Virus record (IMG/VR): IMGVR_UViG_3300023117_000010
Coordinates: 28,174-92,173 of that record
From: a virus
Direction: 5' to 3' (one strand)
DNA length: 64,000 bases
Shown here: positions 6,717 to 59,913 of the stretch, one piece after another
Layout: the number at the start of each line of letters is the position of its first letter
Numbering within the stretch: position 1 is the stretch's first letter
Translations under genes and position numbers: made by a program
The notes under the pieces: generated by a model
Seen by the model: only the letters and a program-made list of their open reading frames with translations
Database searches by the model: none
Told to the model about the DNA's origin: nothing

Positions 6717-8015
6717 CTAACTAATTGAACCGAGATTAATACGTTCGAAAGATGTAATACCATGACGCCGATTAATAGTAATAAGCGCCTGTTGTGCCTC
6801 ATCGCCAGCATGCATTGTATCGAATGCATACTCATCTGGCCCCTTAATAGAACCATTGACAATAAGATCACACCCACGACCGGGCCACCAAAGCAATTGG
6901 TGGAAATGCCCCATCATGAGCATATCTACGGGAGGCATTCCAAGACTCTTAAGACCTTCTTGGAATGCCGCCCGCTTTCTCGCAAGACCGTAAAACGGAA
7001 TGCCTGCGAAACTTGTAGACTTATATCCATCGCCATGAGTGAACCCAACCTTGTGTCCCTCAATGTCGTGAACATAAATCAAATCCTTTGGTACGATAAC
7101 TTTTACATTATCAATATCACGGACAATGGCCTTAACCATTTCACCCATGATATATTCTAGGTTATCATACTTTCGCTTATGGCGTGGCTTCTTTGTTAAG
7201 CGTGGGTGATTACCGGGCATAACAATAACCTCAACCTCTGGAAAGTTCTCAGAAAGCGAACCAATAACATCAACCATCAGATGCGCCATGCGAACTAGTT
7301 GATCTGAAACAGGAGACTCATTTGATTCAGCCAACTCTTCATGAATATTACCACTAATCATATCGCCAAGAAACACAGCGACAATCTTATTGATTGGATG
7401 ATCTTGACTGTTAAGTTGACGAAAACGTATAATTTTCTGAGTAAGAAACTCTATACGACGCTCACAAACATCCATGTTATATCTAATGTCATACATATCT
7501 ACAGTCTCTCCGTAATGAGCATCGGAGATAAGCGCAACCATCGTGTGTGGGTCATCACCTTCTGTTGGAGAAGGACCGGCTCTAAAGATTGGTTCATAAG
7601 GATTAGTTTCCATAGCACCGATTATCTTTTGAGCGACACGATCATCTGCATCTAAGACTGATTCATAATCTTTAATAAGTTTAACAGAACGCTTTATGTC
7701 AGTTGACTGTCTAAGCAGTTCACGGTTTGCTTCAACTAACTCACGACGCAAACGATCTTGTTCTGTATCTTCATTATTAAGACGCCTATTAGCAGAAGCA
7801 ATAGGAGACTTATTTACATCAAATGTATAAATCTCACTATCCCAACGATCAATAGCCCTGCGAACAGAACGCTCTGACGTTGAAATGCCATAACGATCAA
7901 CAAGAAGCCGCGCAATAGCAGTCATTCCCATTCCGGCTAGGTGAGCATCTATGATGATATCTTTGAAATCATCAAGAGGCGAACCTGACACACCTGAAGG
8001 TTCATTAGTACCCAT
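6717..8015 (-). CDS. metallophosphoesterase with N-terminal helix-turn-helix
   Basis: A 432-residue calcineurin-like phosphoesterase. The metal motifs are in order: SDAHYG (Asp165, His167), GDM (Asp218), GNH (Asn269, His270), then THGD and GHFH. These are typical of the Mre11/SbcD and DNA-repair exonuclease branch. Residues about 20-60 look like a helix-turn-helix (TAIARLLVDRYGISTSERSV), and residues 85-120 a charged helix. So it may be a DNA-directed nuclease or phosphatase. It lies directly downstream of the portal gene in the virion block, an uncommon place for a repair enzyme. Family certain; substrate unknown. Confidence 0.85.
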   Translation of the reverse strand: MGTNEPSGVSGSPLDDFKDIIIDAHLAGMGMTAIARLLVDRYGISTSERSVRRAIDRWDSEIYTFDVNKSPIASANRRLNNEDTEQDRLRRELVEANRELLRQSTDIKRSVKLIKDYESVLDADDRVAQKIIGAMETNPYEPIFRAGPSPTEGDDPHTMVALISDAHYGETVDMYDIRYNMDVCERRIEFLTQKIIRFRQLNSQDHPINKIVAVFLGDMISGNIHEELAESNESPVSDQLVRMAHLMVDVIGSLSENFPEVEVIVMPGNHPRLTKKPRHKRKYDNLEYIMGEMVKAIVRDIDNVKVIVPKDLIYVHDIEGHKVGFTHGDGYKSTSFAGIPFYGLARKRAAFQEGLKSLGMPPVDMLMMGHFHQLLWWPGRGCDLIVNGSIKGPDEYAFDTMHAGDEAQQALITINRRHGITSFERINLGSIS

Positions 8016-15492: not shown

Positions 15493-17427
15493 TTATAGTG
15501 TCGGACGACGGGTTTTACTGTAACCGAACCTACTAGGAGTTTGTTTTGCACTTCTTGTTCTCATAGGTTTAGGCTTTTTTGAATAAAAATGAGCAAAAGA
15601 TTCGGGAGTTTCAGCACCGATTGCGTTTTTAGTATAACCTCCCATAGCACCCATCGCCATCCCCGAAGATAGACCTTCTAGATTAATAAAATCACCTACT
15701 AGGTAGTCTACAACTTCCATTAAACAGTCTGCGATATCCTTTGTGGTAACAGGACCAACATTTTGTTTTACGACACGATTTCCCTTTTGCTGCAAGAACT
15801 TTAATTCATTTTTAGTAAGTTCTAGAAGAGGAAAGTCAGCAGGAGCATGTACAAGACCTAAATTGATAGCAGTTTTAAATCTTTCCGCTCTAGCATAATT
15901 AAGTTTTTCAGTAGCGACAACCTCTCTAATCATAGTATCGCCAACTTGGTTTCTACGAGTCTGCTTTCTTAACCATTGAATTAAACCTTTTGATTGGAAT
16001 TGGTCGAAACTAAAATCTTTTGGTCTAAAATTAATAATATTTTCAAGAATTTCATCTTGAACATCCAAATAGTTAATAGTATGATCTGGAAAGTCAGCAG
16101 GAATCCACGCATGGATATAATCAAAAAATACATGAGGTACATTTCTTCCCTGATCATCTAAATGATGTTCAACATGCCCAATAGCAAGACCAAAATTAGC
16201 AGTAGTTGTTGAAGGGTCACAATGTCCCTTAAAAAGAACTTCTGGACCATAACCAGAACGATCTTGCTTTGTCTTTAATGTTCTTCCATTCCAAGTCTTA
16301 AACACATCGTCAACTTTATTAGGATCTAAGAATCCATCTACAACTTCTGCAAACTTGGAACGACGTTCAACTGAAAACTTTTCTGGGTTACGCTCTTCTT
16401 CAAGAGCCATTGCCTCATCCTCTACTGGAGAAAGCACGATTGCATTTTTAAATCTTCTTTCGGGATCTTTGTCCCAATCTTTATACAATTCCCAAGAAGG
16501 AAATTGAAAACCCATCATTCTATAGTCCAAAATTTCAGAAGACTTTTGTTCTTGTTCAGGCAAAATATCCATTGCAACAAGATAATTATTATAAAACTTA
16601 CCGACTTTTGTATATGGAGAAGAATTTTCAAAGATAAGAGCATCTTCTTTAAACTGGTCAAGAGCGGGTCGCGCTGCTTCTATGATTTCATCTGCTCCCG
16701 ATTTACTATTAATTCCTTCCATCATGTGAGCCATCTCATCCATAATAAGAACCATTGTAGCCTCTCCACGAATAGTAGAAGCGTTAGCAGCCGATGGTTT
16801 TATTCTAATCGAAGCCAAATCGCGTTCACTTTTAAAAGCACTTCTTGCTTTTAGTTGATTTGCTTTTTCAATATCTGCGGGAGTCATGAGACTAATTTCT
16901 TTTTCAAGAAATTTAGACCAATAAGGTTTTAATGCATCGCATGATGTGATAGATCCTGTGATATCTGCAAACTGATATCTTTTTGCTTGGTCTTCTGATG
17001 CAGCAATCGTTGTTACCCAAATTGCTTTATCTCGGTCAATACCATACTTATCTTGAGGATTGTCCATGTTAATTAAATCATAAATCTTTTTAGCAACGGC
17101 AAGACCTGTTATGTGGCCCTTAGAAGAACGACGCCCTCCAATCAACATCACTTCTCTAAAATGATTATATCCACGGTCCCTTAGAATTCCAACTCTTTCT
17201 CTTATCTGCGGAGAAAGCATAACTTCGCCAGACTTATTATAAACCCATTCGTCAAGGATATCTTCCTCAAAAGGAGTAAGTTCTTCTAAAAAGATTAATT
17301 TTAATAAAACTCTTTGTCTTGGATAAAGAGGTTTATTACAGTACTCATCTGATTCAGCAAATTCTACAATTGAAACTTTCTTGTCTTTAAGATTTAAAGA
17401 AAAGAAATCAATAAGATCAGTTCCCAT
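15493..17427 (-). CDS. terL: terminase large subunit
   Basis: The ATP-driven DNA packaging motor and nuclease. The ATPase domain has a Walker A-like loop at residues 97-105 (GGRRSSKGH) and a Walker B VLIMDEMAH near residue 230. The C-terminal half contains an RNase H-type nuclease region beginning FKGHCDPS, near residue 400, with further acidic residues downstream. Length 644 residues fits large phage terminases. The ATG overlaps the upstream stop in a TAATG junction. Upstream is an HTH protein that could be the small subunit; downstream follow structural genes and portal. Confidence 0.9.
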   Translation of the reverse strand: MGTDLIDFFSLNLKDKKVSIVEFAESDEYCNKPLYPRQRVLLKLIFLEELTPFEEDILDEWVYNKSGEVMLSPQIRERVGILRDRGYNHFREVMLIGGRRSSKGHITGLAVAKKIYDLINMDNPQDKYGIDRDKAIWVTTIAASEDQAKRYQFADITGSITSCDALKPYWSKFLEKEISLMTPADIEKANQLKARSAFKSERDLASIRIKPSAANASTIRGEATMVLIMDEMAHMMEGINSKSGADEIIEAARPALDQFKEDALIFENSSPYTKVGKFYNNYLVAMDILPEQEQKSSEILDYRMMGFQFPSWELYKDWDKDPERRFKNAIVLSPVEDEAMALEEERNPEKFSVERRSKFAEVVDGFLDPNKVDDVFKTWNGRTLKTKQDRSGYGPEVLFKGHCDPSTTTANFGLAIGHVEHHLDDQGRNVPHVFFDYIHAWIPADFPDHTINYLDVQDEILENIINFRPKDFSFDQFQSKGLIQWLRKQTRRNQVGDTMIREVVATEKLNYARAERFKTAINLGLVHAPADFPLLELTKNELKFLQQKGNRVVKQNVGPVTTKDIADCLMEVVDYLVGDFINLEGLSSGMAMGAMGGYTKNAIGAETPESFAHFYSKKPKPMRTRSAKQTPSRFGYSKTRRPTL

Positions 17428-45200: not shown

Positions 45201-47183
45201 TTAAATCCTTTTCCATTTATTTTTAATTGACGATCTTCTTTCCCCCTCTTCAAAATTAGGTGGAGCAGGAGATTGTCCTTGCGGCATAGGAGGAAACTCA
45301 GAATTTTGATTTTCTAACTCTAACGGATTACCTGCTTGAGAAACATCTTGTTGAACAACTTGATAGTTTGGAGCATCTGGTTCAAAACTGTAAGTTTGAT
45401 TAGGATCAAACTCTGCTCCAAAATACCCTACTGGTAAGGATCTTGACTCCCAAAACATTGCCATAACGTGAGAACATGGCCGACCTTCAAATTTCTTATA
45501 TTTTCTTGTTCTTCCGTATGCATACTGACCCCATTTACACTCACAGTTCCAATGCGTAATTCTTTGACTGCTAGGGTCTTCTCTATATATTATGCATTCG
45601 TAAATACCATTATCACCCTGTACTACTCCTTCAACTGCATTTTCAGCATTGGTGTTTATTACTACTTGACCGCCATCTTTTAGACGTTTTGCTTTCATTT
45701 CAACGTCGCGCCAAGCGGCTTCTCTTCTAATTTGCTTTGATATTTCAAGAATTGCTGACTCTACATTTGATGAACTTTTATAGAAGTTATTAATAAATGA
45801 AGACAAGTTATCTTTTGTATTCATTTCAGGATTGTCAACAACAATATCCATCAAAGATTTCAGTATTTCTCCCACTTGAGGGCCACTATCAATGCCTAAA
45901 AGTTGCATAACTTCGTTGCCATTAATTGCTAAATCTTTGGGAGTAAAAGCATTTTGTGCTTCATATTCAGCATCAATTAATTGCCTCATTAAATCAGACA
46001 TTTCTCTTGTAGCACTATCATTGCCTTTACCTAAATAATCTGACTCTTTAAGATCAAGTAAATTATGAGCAATTTCGTAAGAACCGGCTTGATTAAGAAA
46101 CTTTCTTGCTCCCTTTGATGAATTAAAAATGGGGAACATATGATTTTGAATTAATTGTTTAATTCTTGCTATTCTGTTTGCAGGATATCTTAATCTTCTT
46201 AAAATATCTTCAGCCATTTGTGCGCCAACAGTTTCATGGTCTTGTCCTTGACCAGAATCATTTTTATAATAGTGACCATTTCCCTCTTCGTCGTACCAAA
46301 CAGAATCTGGTTTGCCAATATCGTGAAACAAAGCCGCGAGTCTCATATCTGTATCATCAGATCTGCGAGCCATATTTTTGACAACTTCCATCAGGTGAGT
46401 CCCTAGATCATAATTATGATGTTTGTTTTTTTGATCGTAACCAAATGTTGTATGAACTTCTGGCAAGAAGTGTTCTAATACTCCGGTTTGTTGACCAATT
46501 TGTATTGCTTGATGAGGATGTTCTCCGCTGAGTATTTTATCTAATTCCATGCCCATAATCTCTGGAGCGATTTTAGCCAAGTACGGGCCATATTTACGCA
46601 TTTGTTCTTTAGTTTTTTCATCTGGTTGTAAACCGTGCTTGCTTATTGCAGTTAATGCTCTAAGCGTTCTTGAAGGATCATCTCTAAAAGAGTTTTCATT
46701 GATAACTCTTAACAATCCCTTTTCAATATCATCAATTCCATTTAAAGGATCTACAATCTCTCCGGTTTGAGCGTTTACGGCAATTGCGTTTGCAGTAAAA
46801 TCTCTTCTTTCTAAATCTCTTTCAATTCGAATAGACGGATCACTTTTAAATTCCCAATCTTTACTTTCTTCTCCAACCTTAGTTTCTATTCTTGGTAAAG
46901 CAATTTCTACTTCTTCGTTTTGATATCTAAACCTATATACTGGAAACTGTTTTCCAGTTTTATTTAATGTTGCATTTGGGAAATTACTTAATACAGACTT
47001 AATTGTATCTTCGTCTACTCTTGCTACCAAATCTATGTCTTTTGGTTTCTTTTGAAGAAGAACATCTCTAACCGCTCCACCAACTACATAAACTTCTCCA
47101 AATGGAGATAATAGTTCAACAACTGTTTTTGCCGCAGGATTATTTCTTACTAATCTTAGTATATATTCACTTAGATTATCCAT
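45201..47183 (-). CDS. CCA-adding nucleotidyltransferase fused to HD and SWIM domains
   Basis: A 660-residue protein. Residues 30-200 match tRNA nucleotidyltransferase/poly(A) polymerase: VVGGAVRDVLL, DIDL (Asp49, Asp51), ERRDFTANAIA and FRDDPSRTLRA. An HD phosphohydrolase domain follows (ALFHDIGK near residue 290). Residue 487 begins RREAAW, the recurrent motif, and after it a SWIM zinc finger (CECKWG ... PCSHV, about 548-575), a Pro-rich stretch and the end KNKWKRI. It would add or repair CCA ends on tRNAs; the window's tRNA genes lack encoded CCA. It is placed among virion and lysis genes rather than beside the tRNAs. Confidence 0.85.
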   Translation of the reverse strand: MDNLSEYILRLVRNNPAAKTVVELLSPFGEVYVVGGAVRDVLLQKKPKDIDLVARVDEDTIKSVLSNFPNATLNKTGKQFPVYRFRYQNEEVEIALPRIETKVGEESKDWEFKSDPSIRIERDLERRDFTANAIAVNAQTGEIVDPLNGIDDIEKGLLRVINENSFRDDPSRTLRALTAISKHGLQPDEKTKEQMRKYGPYLAKIAPEIMGMELDKILSGEHPHQAIQIGQQTGVLEHFLPEVHTTFGYDQKNKHHNYDLGTHLMEVVKNMARRSDDTDMRLAALFHDIGKPDSVWYDEEGNGHYYKNDSGQGQDHETVGAQMAEDILRRLRYPANRIARIKQLIQNHMFPIFNSSKGARKFLNQAGSYEIAHNLLDLKESDYLGKGNDSATREMSDLMRQLIDAEYEAQNAFTPKDLAINGNEVMQLLGIDSGPQVGEILKSLMDIVVDNPEMNTKDNLSSFINNFYKSSSNVESAILEISKQIRREAAWRDVEMKAKRLKDGGQVVINTNAENAVEGVVQGDNGIYECIIYREDPSSQRITHWNCECKWGQYAYGRTRKYKKFEGRPCSHVMAMFWESRSLPVGYFGAEFDPNQTYSFEPDAPNYQVVQQDVSQAGNPLELENQNSEFPPMPQGQSPAPPNFEEGERRSSIKNKWKRI

Positions 47184-55088: not shown

Positions 55089-55101
55089 TAAATAGCAACG
55101 T

Positions 55102-55173
55102 TCGGGAGTAGTTCAGTGGTAGAACAGTCGGCTGTTAACCGATATGTCGCAGGTTCGAATCCTGCCTCCCGAG
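55102..55173 (+). tRNA. tRNA-Asn(GTT)
   Basis: A complete cloverleaf: TCGGGAG/CTCCCGA acceptor, anticodon loop with GTT, T-loop TTCGAAT with GCAGG/CCTGC stem. No encoded CCA. Confidence 0.95.
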
Positions 55174-55176
55174 TAT

Positions 55177-55247
55177 GCGGCTATAGTTTAGGGGTAAAAC
55201 GTTGGCCTTCCAAGCCATATTCGTCGGTTCGATTCCGACTAGCCGCT
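55177..55247 (+). tRNA. tRNA-Gly(TCC)
   Basis: GCGGCTA/TAGCCGC acceptor, CTTCCAA anticodon loop (TCC), T-arm GTCGG/CCGAC. Reads GGA/GGG. No encoded CCA. Confidence 0.93.
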
Positions 55248-55254
55248 TGCAGTA

Positions 55255-55263
55255 TGATATAAT
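55255..55263 (+). promoter_or_regulatory. extended -10 promoter (TGATATAAT)
   Basis: TGATATAAT, identical to the motif at other intergenic sites, lies about 25 bases before the next small gene's ATG. No -35 match. Confidence 0.5.
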
Positions 55264-55287
55264 GTAAAAAACAGATTGGAGTATGAT

Positions 55288-55467
55288 ATGGTTAATGAGC
55301 GTAAGAAGAACACAGATCCTCGCAAGGGGACTCCCGAAGTACTTCATCCAAATAAGTCAGAGCAGGATCGCATGCCTTCGGCAGAGCGTCCTCGCGTTAA
55401 GAAAGCCCAACAGTGGGCAGATCAGATGCAAAAGGATAGACCAAGCGGTATAGGATTAACAGGTTAA
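55288..55467 (+). CDS. small basic hypothetical protein in tRNA cluster
   Basis: A 59-residue, strongly charged and probably disordered protein (NERKKNTDPRKG ... QMQKDRPSGIG). GGAG lies six bases before the ATG; an in-frame TTG at 55276 is less likely. It lies between tRNA-Gly and tRNA-Arg. No family recognised. Confidence 0.6.
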   Translation: MVNERKKNTDPRKGTPEVLHPNKSEQDRMPSAERPRVKKAQQWADQMQKDRPSGIGLTG

Positions 55468-55474
55468 TAATCCT

Positions 55475-55547
<73 letters not shown>

Positions 55548-55550
55548 TTT

Positions 55551-55624
55551 GGGCGAGTAACTCAGTTGGTCAGAGTGCCTGCTTTACACGCAGGAAGTCG
55601 GGGGTTCAAGTCCCTCCTTGCCCA
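55551..55624 (+). tRNA. tRNA-Val(TAC)
   Basis: GGGCGAG/CTTGCCC acceptor with one G-T pair, CCTGC/GCAGG anticodon stem with TAC, T-loop TTCAAGT. No encoded CCA. Confidence 0.94.
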
Positions 55625-55627
55625 TGA

Positions 55628-55709
55628 GGGGAAGTGGTGAAATTGGCAGACACGACGGACTCAAAATCCGTTGCCGCAAGGCGTGGGGGTTCAAGTCCCT
55701 CCTTCCCTA
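55628..55709 (+). tRNA. tRNA-Leu(CAA)
   Basis: Class II tRNA with a long variable arm; GGGGAAG/CTTCCCT acceptor, ACGGA/TCCGT anticodon stem, CAA anticodon (reads TTG). No encoded CCA. Confidence 0.93.
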
Positions 55710-55710
55710 C

Positions 55711-55782
55711 TGGCCCATCGTTCAACGGTTAGGACGCGACTCTTATAAAGTCGTAATCTGGGTTCGATTCCCAGTGGGCCGA
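55711..55782 (+). tRNA. tRNA-Ile(TAT)
   Basis: TGGCCCA/TGGGCCG acceptor (T-G at the end), CGACT/AGTCG anticodon stem with loop CTTATAA, anticodon TAT, T-arm CTGGG/CCCAG. It would read ATA directly without lysidine modification. No encoded CCA. Confidence 0.9.
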
Positions 55783-55823
55783 TGAAAAGAACTAATATGA
55801 GCATACATGACAAAAAGAAATAA

Positions 55824-55906
55824 GGGGGCGTGGCGGAATTGGCATACGCAGAGGACTTAAAATCCTTAACCTGTAAGGTTTGTGGGTTCGACTCCCACCG
55901 CCCCTA
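55824..55906 (+). tRNA. tRNA-Leu(TAA)
   Basis: Class II tRNA with long variable arm; GGGGGCG/CGCCCCT acceptor, loop CTTAAAA with TAA anticodon (reads TTA/TTG), T-arm GTGGG/CCCAC. No encoded CCA. Confidence 0.94.
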
Positions 55907-55966
55907 CTAAAAAAATAGTGCATAATTATTTTCTATTACGGAAACTAATAACAAAGGATTGCGACT

Positions 55967-56173
55967 ATGGTTGAAGAAGAAACAATGACTAATGATATAG
56001 ATTATAGACCAATGGATGATCCGTTTGATGAGTTCCAAAGGGCTAAATCTGACTACATTCATATAAGTAAAACTTATAAAAATTATTTTTCTGCTGAATC
56101 ATACCTAGAAGCAGAAGAAAAAGCATGGATAAGATTACAAAATGCTTTAAAAGATCCAAACTTAGAACTATAA
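55967..56173 (+). CDS. small acidic hypothetical protein
   Basis: A 68-residue acidic, mostly helical protein with several Tyr residues, lying between two tRNA genes. AAAGGA is found about ten bases upstream of the ATG. Unrecognised. Confidence 0.6.
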   Translation: MVEEETMTNDIDYRPMDDPFDEFQRAKSDYIHISKTYKNYFSAESYLEAEEKAWIRLQNALKDPNLEL

Positions 56174-56188
56174 AAACTATTTTGGTTT

Positions 56189-56197
56189 TGATATAAT
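56189..56197 (+). promoter_or_regulatory. extended -10 promoter before tRNA-Glu
   Basis: TGATATAAT, the same motif as at 55255, ends 12 bases before tRNA-Glu. No -35 match was found. Confidence 0.5.
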
Positions 56198-56208
56198 CAA
56201 ACTTATAG

Positions 56209-56281
56209 GGCGCATTCGTCTAGTGGTCTAGGACTCGGGACTTTCATTCCCGCAACAGGGGTTCGAACCCCCTATGCGCTA
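56209..56281 (+). tRNA. tRNA-Glu(TTC)
   Basis: GGCGCAT/ATGCGCT acceptor, CGGGA/TCCCG anticodon stem, loop CTTTCAT with TTC, T-arm AGGGG/CCCCT. No encoded CCA. Confidence 0.93.
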
Positions 56282-56306
56282 TCACTATTTAAAAATAGGA
56301 GGAATA

Positions 56307-56474
56307 ATGGCAAGAGCAAAGCATCGGTGGCGTAGACAACGTGATCAAATGTGGGCGTTAATAAATAAAGTTGAACGTCAACGAAAGCATCAAGAAATGC
56401 TAGAAGAGCATAAAAATATTAAAAAGGCTGGGTTGCGACCCACTAAACAAGAAGAAGTACAAGTTACTGAATAA
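56307..56474 (+). CDS. small basic hypothetical protein
   Basis: A 55-residue, Arg/Lys/Gln-rich protein (ARAKHRWRRQRDQ at the start) likely to bind nucleic acid. AGGAGGA precedes the ATG; the frame upstream overlaps tRNA-Glu and is ignored. It lies between tRNA-Glu and tRNA-Gln. Confidence 0.6.
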   Translation: MARAKHRWRRQRDQMWALINKVERQRKHQEMLEEHKNIKKAGLRPTKQEEVQVTE

Positions 56475-56481
56475 GTTTTAC

Positions 56482-56552
56482 TCCGGGATCGTCTAATGGT
56501 AGGACAGAAGGCTTTGGACCTTCTAATCTAGGTTCGAATCCTAGTCCCGGAT
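56482..56552 (+). tRNA. tRNA-Gln(TTG)
   Basis: TCCGGGA/TCCCGGA acceptor, GAAGG/CCTTC anticodon stem, loop CTTTGGA with TTG, T-arm CTAGG/CCTAG. No encoded CCA. Confidence 0.94.
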
Positions 56553-56598
56553 TTTATTTATCTTTTATTACTAAGCATAAGTAATAGAGGATAATATT

Positions 56599-56823
56599 AT
56601 GAATATCTATATACTTTCTTGGGTGCTTGCAGTACTCAGTTTAATTGGAATGTGGAATGTAGGGAAATACCGACTTTGGGCTTGGATTTATTTAGGTTGC
56701 CTAGAAATCCTTTGGACTTTTTATGGTATAATGACTAAACAATACGGATTTATCTTACTCACCGTTGGATACATAACGATTTATGTGATAAACTATAAAA
56801 GATGGAAACAGAAAGAAAACTAA
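56599..56823 (+). CDS. small integral membrane protein
   Basis: A 74-residue protein with two to three hydrophobic spans (about residues 3-22, 27-46 and 50-67) and a basic C-terminal tail (NYKRWKQKEN). GAGGA precedes the ATG. No catalytic residues; an inner-membrane protein of unknown function, perhaps acting on the host envelope. Confidence 0.65.
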   Translation: MNIYILSWVLAVLSLIGMWNVGKYRLWAWIYLGCLEILWTFYGIMTKQYGFILLTVGYITIYVINYKRWKQKEN

Positions 56824-56910
56824 TTGAATTGGCAGTGGTATGACTGGTTTTTCTTTGTAGTCCTTGTTATAATATTCTTATGGTTTTTATATTGGGGACT
56901 TAAAGATTAA
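56824..56910 (+). CDS. possible 28-residue single-span microprotein
   Basis: A TTG-started frame that begins directly after the stop of the upstream membrane-protein gene and encodes NWQWYDWFFFVVLVIIFLWF and then YWGLKD, a single Trp/Phe-rich membrane span. The only upstream site is a weak AGAAAG. The strong composition supports it; the start does not. Confidence 0.4.
   Translation: MNWQWYDWFFFVVLVIIFLWFLYWGLKD
56865..56873 (+). promoter_or_regulatory. possible extended -10 before tRNA-Lys
   Basis: TGTTATAAT lies 43 bases before tRNA-Lys, inside the possible membrane microprotein. A match to the TGnTATAAT pattern; no -35 found. Confidence 0.35.
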
Positions 56911-56915
56911 TATAT

Positions 56916-56987
56916 GGCTCTATGGCGTAATGGCAGCGTAGGGGACTTTTAATCCTTCAGGTCTAGGTTCGAATCCTAGTGGGGCCA
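56916..56987 (+). tRNA. tRNA-Lys(TTT)
   Basis: GGCTCTA/TGGGGCC acceptor with two G-T pairs, GGGGA/TCCTT anticodon stem, loop CTTTTAA, T-arm CTAGG/CCTAG. No encoded CCA. Confidence 0.92.
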
Positions 56988-56989
56988 CT

Positions 56990-57154
56990 ATGACTAATCA
57001 ACAAATATTATATGCAATAGAAAAATATCCTGATAATATGATATCTTCAATTGAAGTTATATGTGATATCTATAACATAGACATTTTTCATGCTTATGCT
57101 ATAGTTCAAGATGAGCATGGACCGTTATATGATAACTCTCCATTATTAAAATAA
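56990..57154 (+). CDS. small hypothetical protein
   Basis: A 54-residue frame (MTNQQILYAIEKYPDN ...) starting two bases after tRNA-Lys; the tRNA's own GGGG end could serve as ribosome site. Helical and rich in Ile, Tyr and Asp. Unrecognised. Confidence 0.5.
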   Translation: MTNQQILYAIEKYPDNMISSIEVICDIYNIDIFHAYAIVQDEHGPLYDNSPLLK

Positions 57155-57174
57155 TATAGAGAAAGGACTGTAAT

Positions 57175-57702
57175 TTGAATACAGCCACTGACAGCCGTAA
57201 TGTTATTGATTACTATAAGTATTGGAATGAGGATGCTATTAAGGCATCTTTAGATAAGGTGAGGTTTCCGTTTGTTGTTGCAATCGAAAACTTTGACAAG
57301 GATTTTAATATTTCCACTACCATTCGTAATTGTAATGCTTTTACTGGAAAAGAAGTATGGATTCTTGGGCGTCGAAGGTGGGACCGTCGCGGTGCTGTCG
57401 GTACTCATCACTATGAGCATCTTAAGTTTGGTGCATCTCTACAGAATACGGTAGATGCTCATCCTGACTATCGTGTGGTAGTATTTGAAAACTACAATAA
57501 TGCACAGGATATCCGTGAGTATGATTGGAACGAAAAGACTATTATGGTTTTTGGGCAGGAAAGCATTGGAGTTACCGACAAGGCTATGGATCTTGCTGAC
57601 GACGTTGTTTATATTCCTCAGTTTGGATCTACCCGCTCTCTTAATGTTGGAGTGGCTAGCGGTATCGCAATGTATTCTTATATTCAGCAGTTTGGAGGTT
57701 GA
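57175..57702 (+). CDS. SpoU/TrmH-family RNA methyltransferase
   Basis: A 175-residue 2'-O-ribose methyltransferase of the SPOUT fold. The three motifs are present: NISTTIRNCNAF (motif 1), FGQESIGVT (motif 2) and IPQFGSTRSLNVGVASGIAM (motif 3). It would use SAM to methylate a tRNA or rRNA. Its place right after the tRNA cluster suggests that phage or host tRNAs are the target. The start is a TTG with GAAAGGA about eight bases upstream. Confidence 0.88.
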   Translation: MNTATDSRNVIDYYKYWNEDAIKASLDKVRFPFVVAIENFDKDFNISTTIRNCNAFTGKEVWILGRRRWDRRGAVGTHHYEHLKFGASLQNTVDAHPDYRVVVFENYNNAQDIREYDWNEKTIMVFGQESIGVTDKAMDLADDVVYIPQFGSTRSLNVGVASGIAMYSYIQQFGG

Positions 57703-57704
57703 TA

Positions 57705-57866
57705 ATGAGTTATCGAATTAAAGAAATTCGCACTACATTGGCACAGGCTAATTATTATCCAGCAGGGTTGAGTGCAGATCTAGACGCGCAGTTGCGAGAT
57801 AAGATGCAAAGCGATATTGAATGGTTGTTGAATGAACTTGAACGTCTGCTAAAGGAAACAGTATGA
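57705..57866 (+). CDS. small hypothetical protein
   Basis: A 53-residue, helical protein (MSYRIKEIRTTLAQAN ...) starting two bases after the previous stop, with GGAGG upstream. It overlaps the next tiny frame in ATGA. Unrecognised. Confidence 0.6.
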   Translation: MSYRIKEIRTTLAQANYYPAGLSADLDAQLRDKMQSDIEWLLNELERLLKETV

Positions 57867-57955
57867 GTGACCGCCTCGCAGAGATACGCGCACGGCTGGA
57901 TGCGGCTCCATCGGCTTGCGACTGGTGGGTAGAAAAACTTCCAGATAAGGAGTAA
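57863..57955 (+). CDS. 30-residue microprotein
   Basis: A short frame whose ATG overlaps the previous stop, ending just before the deaminase ribosome site. The sequence (AEIRARLDAAPSACDWWVEK) resembles the conserved start of small actinophage proteins of unknown function. AAAGGA lies upstream. Moderate support. Confidence 0.5.
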   Translation: MSDRLAEIRARLDAAPSACDWWVEKLPDKE

Positions 57956-57958
57956 TTA

Positions 57959-58387
57959 ATGGCTAATAAGATTGAAGAGTTTCTTGCTGTAACTGAGAAT
58001 ATGGCAGAGCGCTCTACACTTAAGCGCTTTCAGGTCGGTGCCCTTATCCATAGAGATGGAGAGATTAGTACCGGATGGGCGCATATGTCCGATCTTAAGT
58101 TGCAGAGTTATATTTCTATTCATGCAGAGATTCATGCCCTTTGGAGGGCTAACCCTAAGTTCCTTGAAGGAGCAGATTGTTTTCTTGTAACTCTATCTGC
58201 CAAGAGTAAGAATCGCACTAATAGCAAGCCCTGTAAGTCTTGTATGGCCCACCTTTACGATGCGGGTATTCGTAAGGTCTATTATTCTGTAAGTAATGAT
58301 GAATATGGCGAGATTGATTTTAGGCATGGTTTTCCTGATATCAAGATGATTAAGGCTCGCACGGCAGAAGATTGGAGTAATAATTAG
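57959..58387 (+). CDS. cytidine/deoxycytidylate deaminase-family protein
   Basis: A 142-residue zinc deaminase. The catalytic motif HAE is at residues 55-57 (SIHAEIHAL) and the second zinc motif PCKSC at 91-95 with the following GIRKVYYSV segment. This is the dCMP/cytidine deaminase fold; deamination of deoxycytidylate to dUMP for ThyX is the likely role, given the RNR, dUTPase and ThyX in the window. AAGGAG lies six bases before the ATG. Other substrates such as tRNA or blasticidin-like bases cannot be excluded. Confidence 0.82.
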   Translation: MANKIEEFLAVTENMAERSTLKRFQVGALIHRDGEISTGWAHMSDLKLQSYISIHAEIHALWRANPKFLEGADCFLVTLSAKSKNRTNSKPCKSCMAHLYDAGIRKVYYSVSNDEYGEIDFRHGFPDIKMIKARTAEDWSNN

Positions 58388-59482
58388 ATGTATGACTATC
58401 TAGTGGTTGGAGCAGGATTATTTGGAGCAACGTTTGCTCGCATCATGACCGATTCTGGAAAAAGTTGTTTAGTAATTGATAAGCGAGAGCATATTGGCGG
58501 CAACGTATATACAGAAAAGCATGAGGGCATTCATGTTCATAAATATGGTCCTCATATTTTTCATACATCAAATCAAGATATTTGGGATTTTGTAAATAAA
58601 TATGCAGAGTTTAATAATTATACTCATAGGGTTAAGGCATTCTATAAAAGAAAATTTTATACTTTACCTTTCAATTTAAAAACATTTAATGAAATTGCTA
58701 ATGCTTCTAGTATTAAACAATTGCAAGGTTGGATTGAACAATGGAACGAACTACCAAACAAACAATCTAATTTAGAAACTTGGGCAATATCACAAGTAGG
58801 TCCAGAAGTTTATAAAACGCTTATTAAAGGCTATACAGAGAAGCAGTGGGGCAAACCTCCGTCAGAGTTGCCAGCAGATATTATTAAACGTCTTCCTATT
58901 CGTATGACTTTTGATGATAACTATTTTAATGATACTTATCAGGGTATCCCAGTAAACGGATATACAGATATGATATCTAATATTCTTAAAGATATTCCAT
59001 ATCTAACAAATATGCCATATGCTCATCATCTTAAAGAATTGGCTCATAAAGTCGTTTACACAGGACCAATTGATGAGTTTTTTGATTATGAACTGGGTAA
59101 ACTTGAATATCGTTCATTAGATCTTGTAAATGAAGTTTATGAGTCTGAATATTATCAAGGTTGTGCCCAAATAAATTATACAGAAAAGTTTATTCCTCAT
59201 ACGAGAATTGTTGAGCATAAGCATTTCTACCCCGGACTAAAAACAGACAAAACAATCATTACTAGAGAATTTCCTACAAAGTTTGGCGAACCTTATTACC
59301 CAATAAACGATAAGAAAAACAACGATCTATATAATGAATATAGAAAAATGGCTAAGGTAAAAGCACCAAAAGTTATTTTTGGAGGTAGGCTTGGCAACTA
59401 TAAATACTATGATATGCATCAAGTTATTGGACAAGCAATGAAATATGCTAAACTAGAAAAAGAAGAAAAAACGAACAATTAA
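58388..59482 (+). CDS. glf: UDP-galactopyranose mutase
   Basis: A 364-residue FAD enzyme converting UDP-galactopyranose to UDP-galactofuranose. The dinucleotide-binding motif GAGLFG is at residues 8-13, followed by REHIGGNVYTE and HKYGPHIFHT, both diagnostic of Glf. KGYTEKQWG and GRLGNYKYYDMHQVIG near the C-terminus also match. Galactofuranose is used in actinobacterial cell walls and some O-antigens, so the phage may alter the host surface or feed glycosylation. It sits directly after the deaminase gene with no gap. Confidence 0.95.
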   Translation: MYDYLVVGAGLFGATFARIMTDSGKSCLVIDKREHIGGNVYTEKHEGIHVHKYGPHIFHTSNQDIWDFVNKYAEFNNYTHRVKAFYKRKFYTLPFNLKTFNEIANASSIKQLQGWIEQWNELPNKQSNLETWAISQVGPEVYKTLIKGYTEKQWGKPPSELPADIIKRLPIRMTFDDNYFNDTYQGIPVNGYTDMISNILKDIPYLTNMPYAHHLKELAHKVVYTGPIDEFFDYELGKLEYRSLDLVNEVYESEYYQGCAQINYTEKFIPHTRIVEHKHFYPGLKTDKTIITREFPTKFGEPYYPINDKKNNDLYNEYRKMAKVKAPKVIFGGRLGNYKYYDMHQVIGQAMKYAKLEKEEKTNN

Positions 59483-59495
59483 ATAGTGGTTACTT

Positions 59496-59777
59496 GGGGA
59501 TGAATTAGTTTCGACCTATAGAGAAGCCAAATCAATCAGCGGTTAGTTACCTCATAACTCCTGCTTGGATAAGCAAATAAACATAAATGGCAACTTAAAT
59601 GAAGTCATCGTTCCAGACACTTTCCCCGCCTCATGGGTAGAGGAATTTGCTGGAGTAGCCGCTTAGTCTACAACTACTAAGCACAGTAGTAAACCGAAGT
59701 ACAATGTAGTATAATATGCTGTATAAGTTGATTTGAGGGAACTATATGGGACACCGGGGCAGAGCCGGTCATCTCCA
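59496..59777 (+). ncRNA. ssrA: tmRNA with long tag
   Basis: Rescues stalled ribosomes. The 5' end GGGGATG and the 3' end CATCTCC form the acceptor stem, and TTCGACCTATAGAGAAGCC is the usual 5' domain. The resume codon is GGC (59589) after ATAAAT, followed by an open frame of 25 codons beginning GNLNEVIVPDTF and ending EEFAGVAA before TAG (59664-59666). Bxz1 mycobacteriophage tmRNA also has a tag of about 25 residues. The T-loop is GGCAGAG (59758-59764) rather than TTCRANY. No encoded CCA. Confidence 0.88.
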
Positions 59778-59782
59778 TACAA

Positions 59783-59855
59783 CGCGGGGTGGAGAAGTGG
59801 TTATCTCGTCGGCTTCATGCGTCGAAGATCGAAGGTTCGAATCCTTCCCCCGCTA
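59783..59855 (+). tRNA. tRNA-Met(CAT), initiator-like
   Basis: Anticodon CAT. The acceptor starts CGCGGGG and ends CCCCGCT, so position 1-72 is a C-T mismatch, and the D-stem has A11-T24; both resemble initiator tRNA. The anticodon stem TCGGC/GTCGA lacks the three G-C pairs usual in initiators. T-arm GAAGG/CCTTC is normal. No encoded CCA. It starts six bases after the tmRNA. Confidence 0.9.
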
Positions 59856-59883: not shown

Positions 59884-59913
59884 AAGGCCCGCATAAAGCG
59901 GGCCTTTATTTTT
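59884..59913 (+). terminator. rho-independent terminator
   Basis: A 9-bp perfect stem AAGGCCCGC/GCGGGCCTT with a five-base loop and TATTTTT. It ends the tmRNA/tRNA-Met transcript. Confidence 0.92.

Follow-up and report, generated by a model that had tools for sequence, protein, structure and literature searches.

In Escherichia coli tmRNA, U54 and U55 (tRNA-convention numbering) carry m5U and pseudouridine. Guanines have been described in the T-loops of other tmRNAs: the accessible text of Burks 2005 (PMC1168896) gives two in Reclinomonas mitochondria and one in Caulobacter (U342G). The reading frame of E. coli tmRNA is set by the A at position -4 (A86), according to the available part of PMC2481249. 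In the tmRNA database, tags most often have a length of 10 residues, according to the available part of PMC11915505. Longer tags are found in phages: in the Bixzunavirus phages Bigswole and Colt, ARAGORN reads a tag of 25 residues, ATDTDATVTDAEIEAFFAEEAAALV.

Here, a one-piece tmRNA gene is described from a window of 64,000 nucleotides, bases 28174-92173 of a 92,173-base IMG/VR virus record. The new core of this work is a long-tag one-piece phage tmRNA in a putative alternative elbow state that is missed by ARAGORN. No prior description of its T-loop, or of the coupling between positions 18 and 55 reported below, was found in the literature, which was searched mostly without subscription papers, so that earlier notice is possible; the GGCAGAG in PMC5876405 is part of a primer.

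Architecture of the tmRNA gene

The gene lies between a UDP-galactopyranose mutase gene and a tRNA-Met gene, towards the end of a series of 11 tRNA genes that extends from 55101 to 59855 (Table 1). It has the standard one-piece order: a 5' half followed by a 3' half; a D-loop with TTCGAC; and GAC before the T arm. RF00023 matches positions 59496-59780 over the complete model (1-374), with 39.1 bits and an E-value of 3.1e-14 in a 501-base search. This is less than the Rfam gathering score of 47, which is a detection threshold and not a structural feature; at that threshold, an Rfam search of the window reports tRNAs only and misses the tmRNA. A sequence-only reading had proposed a phage tmRNA with a clear acceptor, and the end-to-end model fit and seven acceptor pairs, with G3-U70 and A73 present, bear this out. 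Re-reading of the sequence also agrees with its description of a non-TTC T-loop closed by an intact five-base stem: the loop is GGCAGAG, not of the TTCRANY type. A single copy of the 5' motif GGGGNTGANNNNGTTTCGAC is present in the window, and 0 of 100 shuffles contain it. The minimum free energy (MFE) fold has a z-score of -1.76, with 11 of 200 shuffles folding equally well, and its 3' pseudoknot region is short, as judged from the MFE fold only.

CCA is encoded neither on the tmRNA nor on any of the 11 tRNAs. The phage has a CCA-adding tRNA nucleotidyltransferase, which could complete the 3' ends of both. This protein has 660 residues, and its extra C-terminal part matches phage families of unknown function. 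A SpoU-family RNA methyltransferase is encoded at 57175-57702, in the stretch that separates the tRNA cluster from the tmRNA. On the 3' side of tRNA-Met, at 59886-59913, an inverted repeat (GGCCCGC/GCGGGCC) followed by TTTATTTTT is the likely terminator of the tmRNA/tRNA unit.

Table 1. Positions within the window of the tmRNA gene, its parts and the associated genes
Feature	Position	Strand	Remarks
One-piece tmRNA (ssrA)	59496..59777	+	RF00023 and sequence; mature part ends with discriminator A, without an encoded CCA
Acceptor stem, 5' strand GGGGATG	59496..59502	+	Alanine identity pair G3-U70, the U being 59774
D-loop A18 G19	59507..59508	+	A18 59507, G19 59508; AG, not GG, then TTTCGAC
Tag frame, 25 residues GNLNEVIVPDTFPASWVEEFAGVAA	59589..59666	+	Resume codon GGC; residues 59589-59663, stop TAG 59664-59666; covariance model alignment, reading, substitutions in relative L068
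T arm ACCGG-GGCAGAG-CCGGT	59753..59769	+	Stem 59753-59757/59765-59769; loop 59758-59764; G55 59759, C56 59760
Acceptor stem, 3' strand CATCTCC, and A73	59770..59777	+	Strand 59770-59776, A73 59777; TAC follows instead of CCA
tRNA-Met	59783..59855	+	Directly 3' of tmRNA; last of 11 tRNAs starting at 55101
UDP-galactopyranose mutase gene	58388-59482		Upstream neighbour of tmRNA
CCA-adding tRNA nucleotidyltransferase	45201..47183	-	PolyA_pol 1.9e-27, phrog_2244 1.2e-71
Large terminase	15493-17427		Source of kinship comparisons

The tag reading frame

The consensus resume G of the covariance model aligns to 59589, the same base from which the sequence-only reading had opened its 25-residue frame. 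The comparison with mycobacteriophage Bxz1 made there also holds, as its relatives Bigswole and Colt have tags of equal length. The resume codon is preceded by CATAAAT, which places U at -5 and A at -4.

Sequence searches gave eight matches (seven plus one), of which six are relatives of the window. The other two were rejected as relatives: L520 has the T-loop TTCGATT, and L521 lacks a T arm under the fixed reading criteria. The gene is identical in five IMG/VR relatives (L023, L035, L045, L054 and L066). The sixth, L068, has diverged and keeps the acceptor, the T arm and the frame. Within that frame there are seven substitutions, all transitions: six are silent third-position changes, including TAG to TAA, and one replaces V with I. 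When seven transitions were drawn at random, 124 of 20,000 draws changed one residue or none. Because the substitutions are mostly silent, the 25-residue tag is probably translated and under selection, on the basis of this one diverged relative.

Coupling of elbow positions 18 and 55

The window tmRNA falls into what is here defined as the GGC-elbow class, a T-loop N-G-C together with a D-loop A-G, by virtue of G55, C56, A18 and G19. The association between the two loops was examined with a script using fixed criteria: GAC; five paired T-stem bases; a seven-base loop with C third; seven acceptor pairs; A73; and TCGA. Base 18 was not fixed by the patterns and models that supplied the loci. The collection comprised 163 tmRNA loci with 114 distinct signatures. 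G55 occurred with A18 in 44 of 44 signatures, and U55 with G18 in 70 of 70. Both combinations are found in both gene forms, with G55 and U55 in 16 and 20 one-piece and 28 and 50 two-piece signatures, respectively. Fisher's test gives p = 1e-32, a value that ignores kinship among phylogenetically non-independent signatures. Position 19 is A in one two-piece signature.

The natural reading of this pattern is a tertiary contact between positions 18 and 55 that could take the form of either G-U or A-G while G19-C56 is retained. The tmRNA elbow thus appears to have two exchangeable states, G18-U55 and A18-G55. Phrappuccino (A18, GGC) and the phage of L713 (G18, TTC; tmRNA locus L728) are neighbours in the terminase tree, and their tags are strongly similar (0 of 4000 shuffles). 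The two thus differ in both elbow bases while the tag is kept. Among 198 genomes from the phylum of the cellular contig L476, 59 match a one-piece G18+TTC pattern and none match A18+TTC; the other 139 match neither, the pattern restricting gene length and the TTTCGAC motif. Lacking U54 and U55, the GGC state would be unable to bear the m5U and pseudouridine marks.

Two loci lay outside the coupling filters: L662, for which no 5' end was found, and L731, whose T-loop apparently has eight bases. The latter (L731 1501-1933) is the tmRNA of a 167-kb phage placed near Myrna in the terminase tree; it has a GG D-loop, and ARAGORN is silent on it.

Because the D-loop matches it, the T-loop of the window tmRNA is read as an alternative elbow state and not as loss or damage. 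The earlier description of this loop as non-consensus stands; its treatment as a lone oddity or defect does not, since it belongs to a recurrent class coupled to the D-loop. The coupling would point to a sharply defined tertiary contact in tmRNA that is open to testing, and would explain non-consensus T-loops that otherwise resemble decay.

Distribution of the GGC-class T-loop

Matches to loose gapped patterns were kept only if the acceptor and T-stem pair, and the counts of GGC-class occurrences are minima. GGCAGAG with a perfect stem is present in at least 13 viral two-piece tmRNA loci and, among the matches listed, in one-piece tmRNAs, both those of the window's family and those of L014, L047, L053 and L059. 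The loop GGCAGTG is found, again among the matches listed, in Phrappuccino and in the cellular actinobacterial contig L476. Seven bacterial two-piece genes were read. Six are alphaproteobacterial, with GGCAGTA or GGCGGTA in four and TGC in two; the seventh, from Noviherbaspirillum, has TTCGATT. Among two-piece signatures with a GGC- or TGC-class loop, whether viral or bacterial, GGCAGAG is the most frequent (12 of 28). In the phylum of the genome of L476 (titled Actinomycetota bacterium), 16 of 396 genomes, that of L476 among the 396, match the GGC pattern. For 11 of the 16 the match lies in the T arm of a tmRNA, its stem fully paired; the 10 of these for which a 5' end was found are all one-piece and all A18. 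Taken together, the sequences place GGCAGAG in a recurrent class that extends over two-piece tmRNAs of viruses and Alphaproteobacteria, several phage tmRNAs of the one-piece form and some from Actinomycetota.

Detection by gene finders

ARAGORN makes no call for the tmRNA of the window. Run on one example per signature, it called 0 of 16 one-piece genes of the GGC class and 18 of 20 of the TTC class; among two-piece genes, the corresponding counts were 21 of 28 (GGC/TGC) and 47 of 50 (TTC). A high covariance model score is of no help, as both L014 (90 bits) and L476 (95.2 bits) went uncalled. With RF00023, the five cellular one-piece genes tested that share this elbow state all exceed the cut-off, at 71-95 bits. 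The Rfam model recovers these cases, so cellular GGC-class genes are not invisible to every tool. The scores of other one-piece genes of the class are 44.4 for L047 and 33.6 for L637, below 47, and 54.4 for L053, above it; L059 gave no listed match. In genome profile searches with RF00023, the window's tmRNA was missed in its own record, where the four hits were three window tRNAs and one hit outside the window, and the tmRNA in the record of L068 was missed likewise.

According to the available part of PMC11915505, hits of Aragorn and BLASTN supplied the main batches of the 2025 tmRNA database, and a pass based on Rfam was added later for low-yield bacterial taxa. Some cellular cases may, through that later pass, already be in the database. 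The ARAGORN gap suggests that present counts of phage tmRNAs, and of some actinobacterial ones, are too low.

The 329-kb viral contig L059 also contains, at 7476-7685, a match to bacterial RNase P RNA class A that covers the whole model with 69.5 bits (gathering 100) and lies about 3 kb from its GGC-class one-piece tmRNA. An RNase P RNA may thus be encoded by this large phage itself.

Related phages and their tags

The best isolate matches to the large terminase are from Rhodococcus phages E3 and Finch, Gordonia phages, Phrappuccino and Bixzunavirus phages, with 35-38% identity among the matches listed (about 36% for Bigswole). Three of nine such isolates searched contain a tmRNA above the cut-off: Bigswole, Colt and Phrappuccino, the last with a frame of 28 residues, ADNNDALVSDADFAEIEAFANDSALVSA. 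RF00023 searches covered 48 of 55 viral relatives found by terminase and gave matches above the cut-off in at least 5 of the 48, a lower bound because the genome profile search missed the tmRNAs of the window and L068. Of these five, two have Bxz1-type tags, one has ANDNDATVTEADFAEIEAFANDSVLV and a fourth has the frame ADINDARFTDADFDAIEAYANEGVLV; the tag of the fifth, read by eye, is GTHEDATVTEADFAEIEAFANDSVLV, which also starts with GGC. A pattern search matched 3 of the 48, the sole addition being the known L068 copy. In the terminase tree (FastTree, midpoint root, no support values), the window's group lies apart from the isolated actinophages, and an actinobacterial host for the window phage would be a guess.

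The tags of the Bxz1 type, Phrappuccino, L727 and L728 were compared with each other, and in these six comparisons the score was reached by 0 to 7 of 4000 shuffles; by this measure, these four tags are homologous to one another. The summed score of the window tag against the four was reached by 57 of 10,000 shuffles, or 85 of 10,000 with the first and last three residues fixed. Against single tags, the counts were 30 (Phrappuccino), 95 (L728), 190 (L727), 496 (Bxz1 type) and 2488 (L637) of 4000 shuffles, and against six control tags they were 834 to 2980 of 4000. This is no more than suggestive of homology between the window tag and those of the Bxz1 lineage.

Long tags are also present elsewhere. 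The viral two-piece tmRNAs L006, L039 and L088 have tags of 26, 31 and 29 residues, so that such lengths also occur outside the Bxz1 lineage. A viral one-piece tmRNA at L637 2532-2956 has the loop GGCAGTA and an apparent 39-residue frame, and lies among 10 tRNA genes.

Proposed function and alternatives

Taken in aggregate, the data make it very likely that the gene encodes a working one-piece phage tmRNA in the A18-G55 elbow state that tags stalled proteins with GNLNEVIVPDTFPASWVEEFAGVAA. The architecture, frame, tag selection and elbow coupling are read from the sequence, and from them a route may be proposed by which the RNA would be charged, use SmpB, form the 18-55 contact, rescue ribosomes and decide what becomes of the proteins it tags. 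The 3' end of the tmRNA would be finished by the phage's own CCA-adding enzyme, and the RNA charged with alanine. With host SmpB, the charged tmRNA would enter ribosomes that have stalled on broken mRNA in the infected cell. Translation would then switch to the tmRNA frame at GGC 59589, appending (Ala-)GNLNEVIVPDTFPASWVEEFAGVAA, and the ribosome would be released at TAG, leaving a tag that ends in GVAA. In the elbow, an A18-G55 contact would replace G18-U55 while G19-C56 is kept, giving a non-consensus T-loop without U54 and U55 and without a broken fold.

Several lines of evidence favor a working tmRNA: the full-length RF00023 fit; G3-U70 and A73; UA at -5/-4; the conservation in L068; the elbow coupling, with no A18+TTC match in the 198 genomes; the cellular genes in the same state at 71-95 bits; and the CCA enzyme. 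Counted against it are the sub-gathering score of 39.1 bits, the silence of ARAGORN, the short 3' pseudoknot region, the fold z-score of -1.76 and the dependence on a single diverged relative. No SmpB gene was found in the 92-kb record, itself possibly a fragment, so function would depend on the host. The same absence would suit a decoy, an RNA that titrates SmpB or alanyl-tRNA synthetase and inhibits host trans-translation in the manner of the tag-less DS6A type; in the available parts of PMC11915505 and PMC4131195, a DS6A-like RNA inhibits endogenous tmRNA. DS6A, however, is described as having little beyond the tRNA-like domain, whereas a full frame is present here, and its retention through mostly silent changes is needless for a decoy. 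The decoy is judged improbable.

A score under the model threshold and a non-consensus T-loop are also what a decaying relic of a captured host gene might show. The acceptor and T stems are nevertheless perfect, L068 keeps the frame, and the T-loop is common to other lineages and matched by the D-loop; decay is considered very improbable. Finally, GGCAGAG being the commonest loop among the GGC- and TGC-class two-piece signatures (12 of 28) could point to half of a permuted two-piece tmRNA. Against this, the 5' end and T arm are in standard order, 257 bases apart, and RF04321 yields only two disjoint fragments (23.2 and 16.8 bits). The permuted form was rejected, as the 3' tRNA part does not precede the 5' part in the gene, and this alternative is hardly credible.

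Beyond the working tmRNA, a wider proposal is offered tentatively, as something that may well prove incorrect: two elbow states whose bases are exchanged jointly, in phages as well as bacteria; a second-state one-piece class that a main gene finder cannot call; and, in this lineage, a long, lineage-conserved phage tag that sends stalled proteins to a non-host fate. Long phage tags, with the signs of selection seen here, make it possible to ask if phages rewrite the fate of stalled proteins. The sequence-only reading had suggested that such a tag could lead proteins to a different protease or shield them, so that the phage may retune host trans-translation; this part of it stands as a hypothesis.

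Comparison with known systems

The window tmRNA resembles the Bxz1 type (Bixzunavirus; read in Bigswole and Colt) in its one-piece form, its position among tRNA genes, its 25-residue tag and a distant shared terminase. It differs in its elbow, as the Bxz1 type has the T-loop TTCGAGT with a GG D-loop and is called by ARAGORN, and in the end of the tag, which is ALV in the Bxz1 type and VAA here. Mycobacterium phage Phrappuccino (L162) is closer in this respect: it is one-piece, with a GGC-class loop (GGCAGTG) and an AG D-loop, and ARAGORN misses both. Its acceptor is GGGCCTG, however, its RNA is longer (a covariance model match of 411 nt), and its tag is only weakly similar. The alphaproteobacterial and viral two-piece tmRNAs (RF01849, RF04321) share the combination of a GGC or TGC T-loop with an AG D-loop, but have a permuted gene order and two RNA pieces. 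Some Actinomycetota one-piece tmRNAs (KLAP93, L476 and others) likewise combine an AG D-loop with a GGC-class loop, GGCAGTG or GGCAGTA; in contrast to the window gene, they are cellular, and their predicted tags are of ordinary length, e.g. AAESSPKLALAA.
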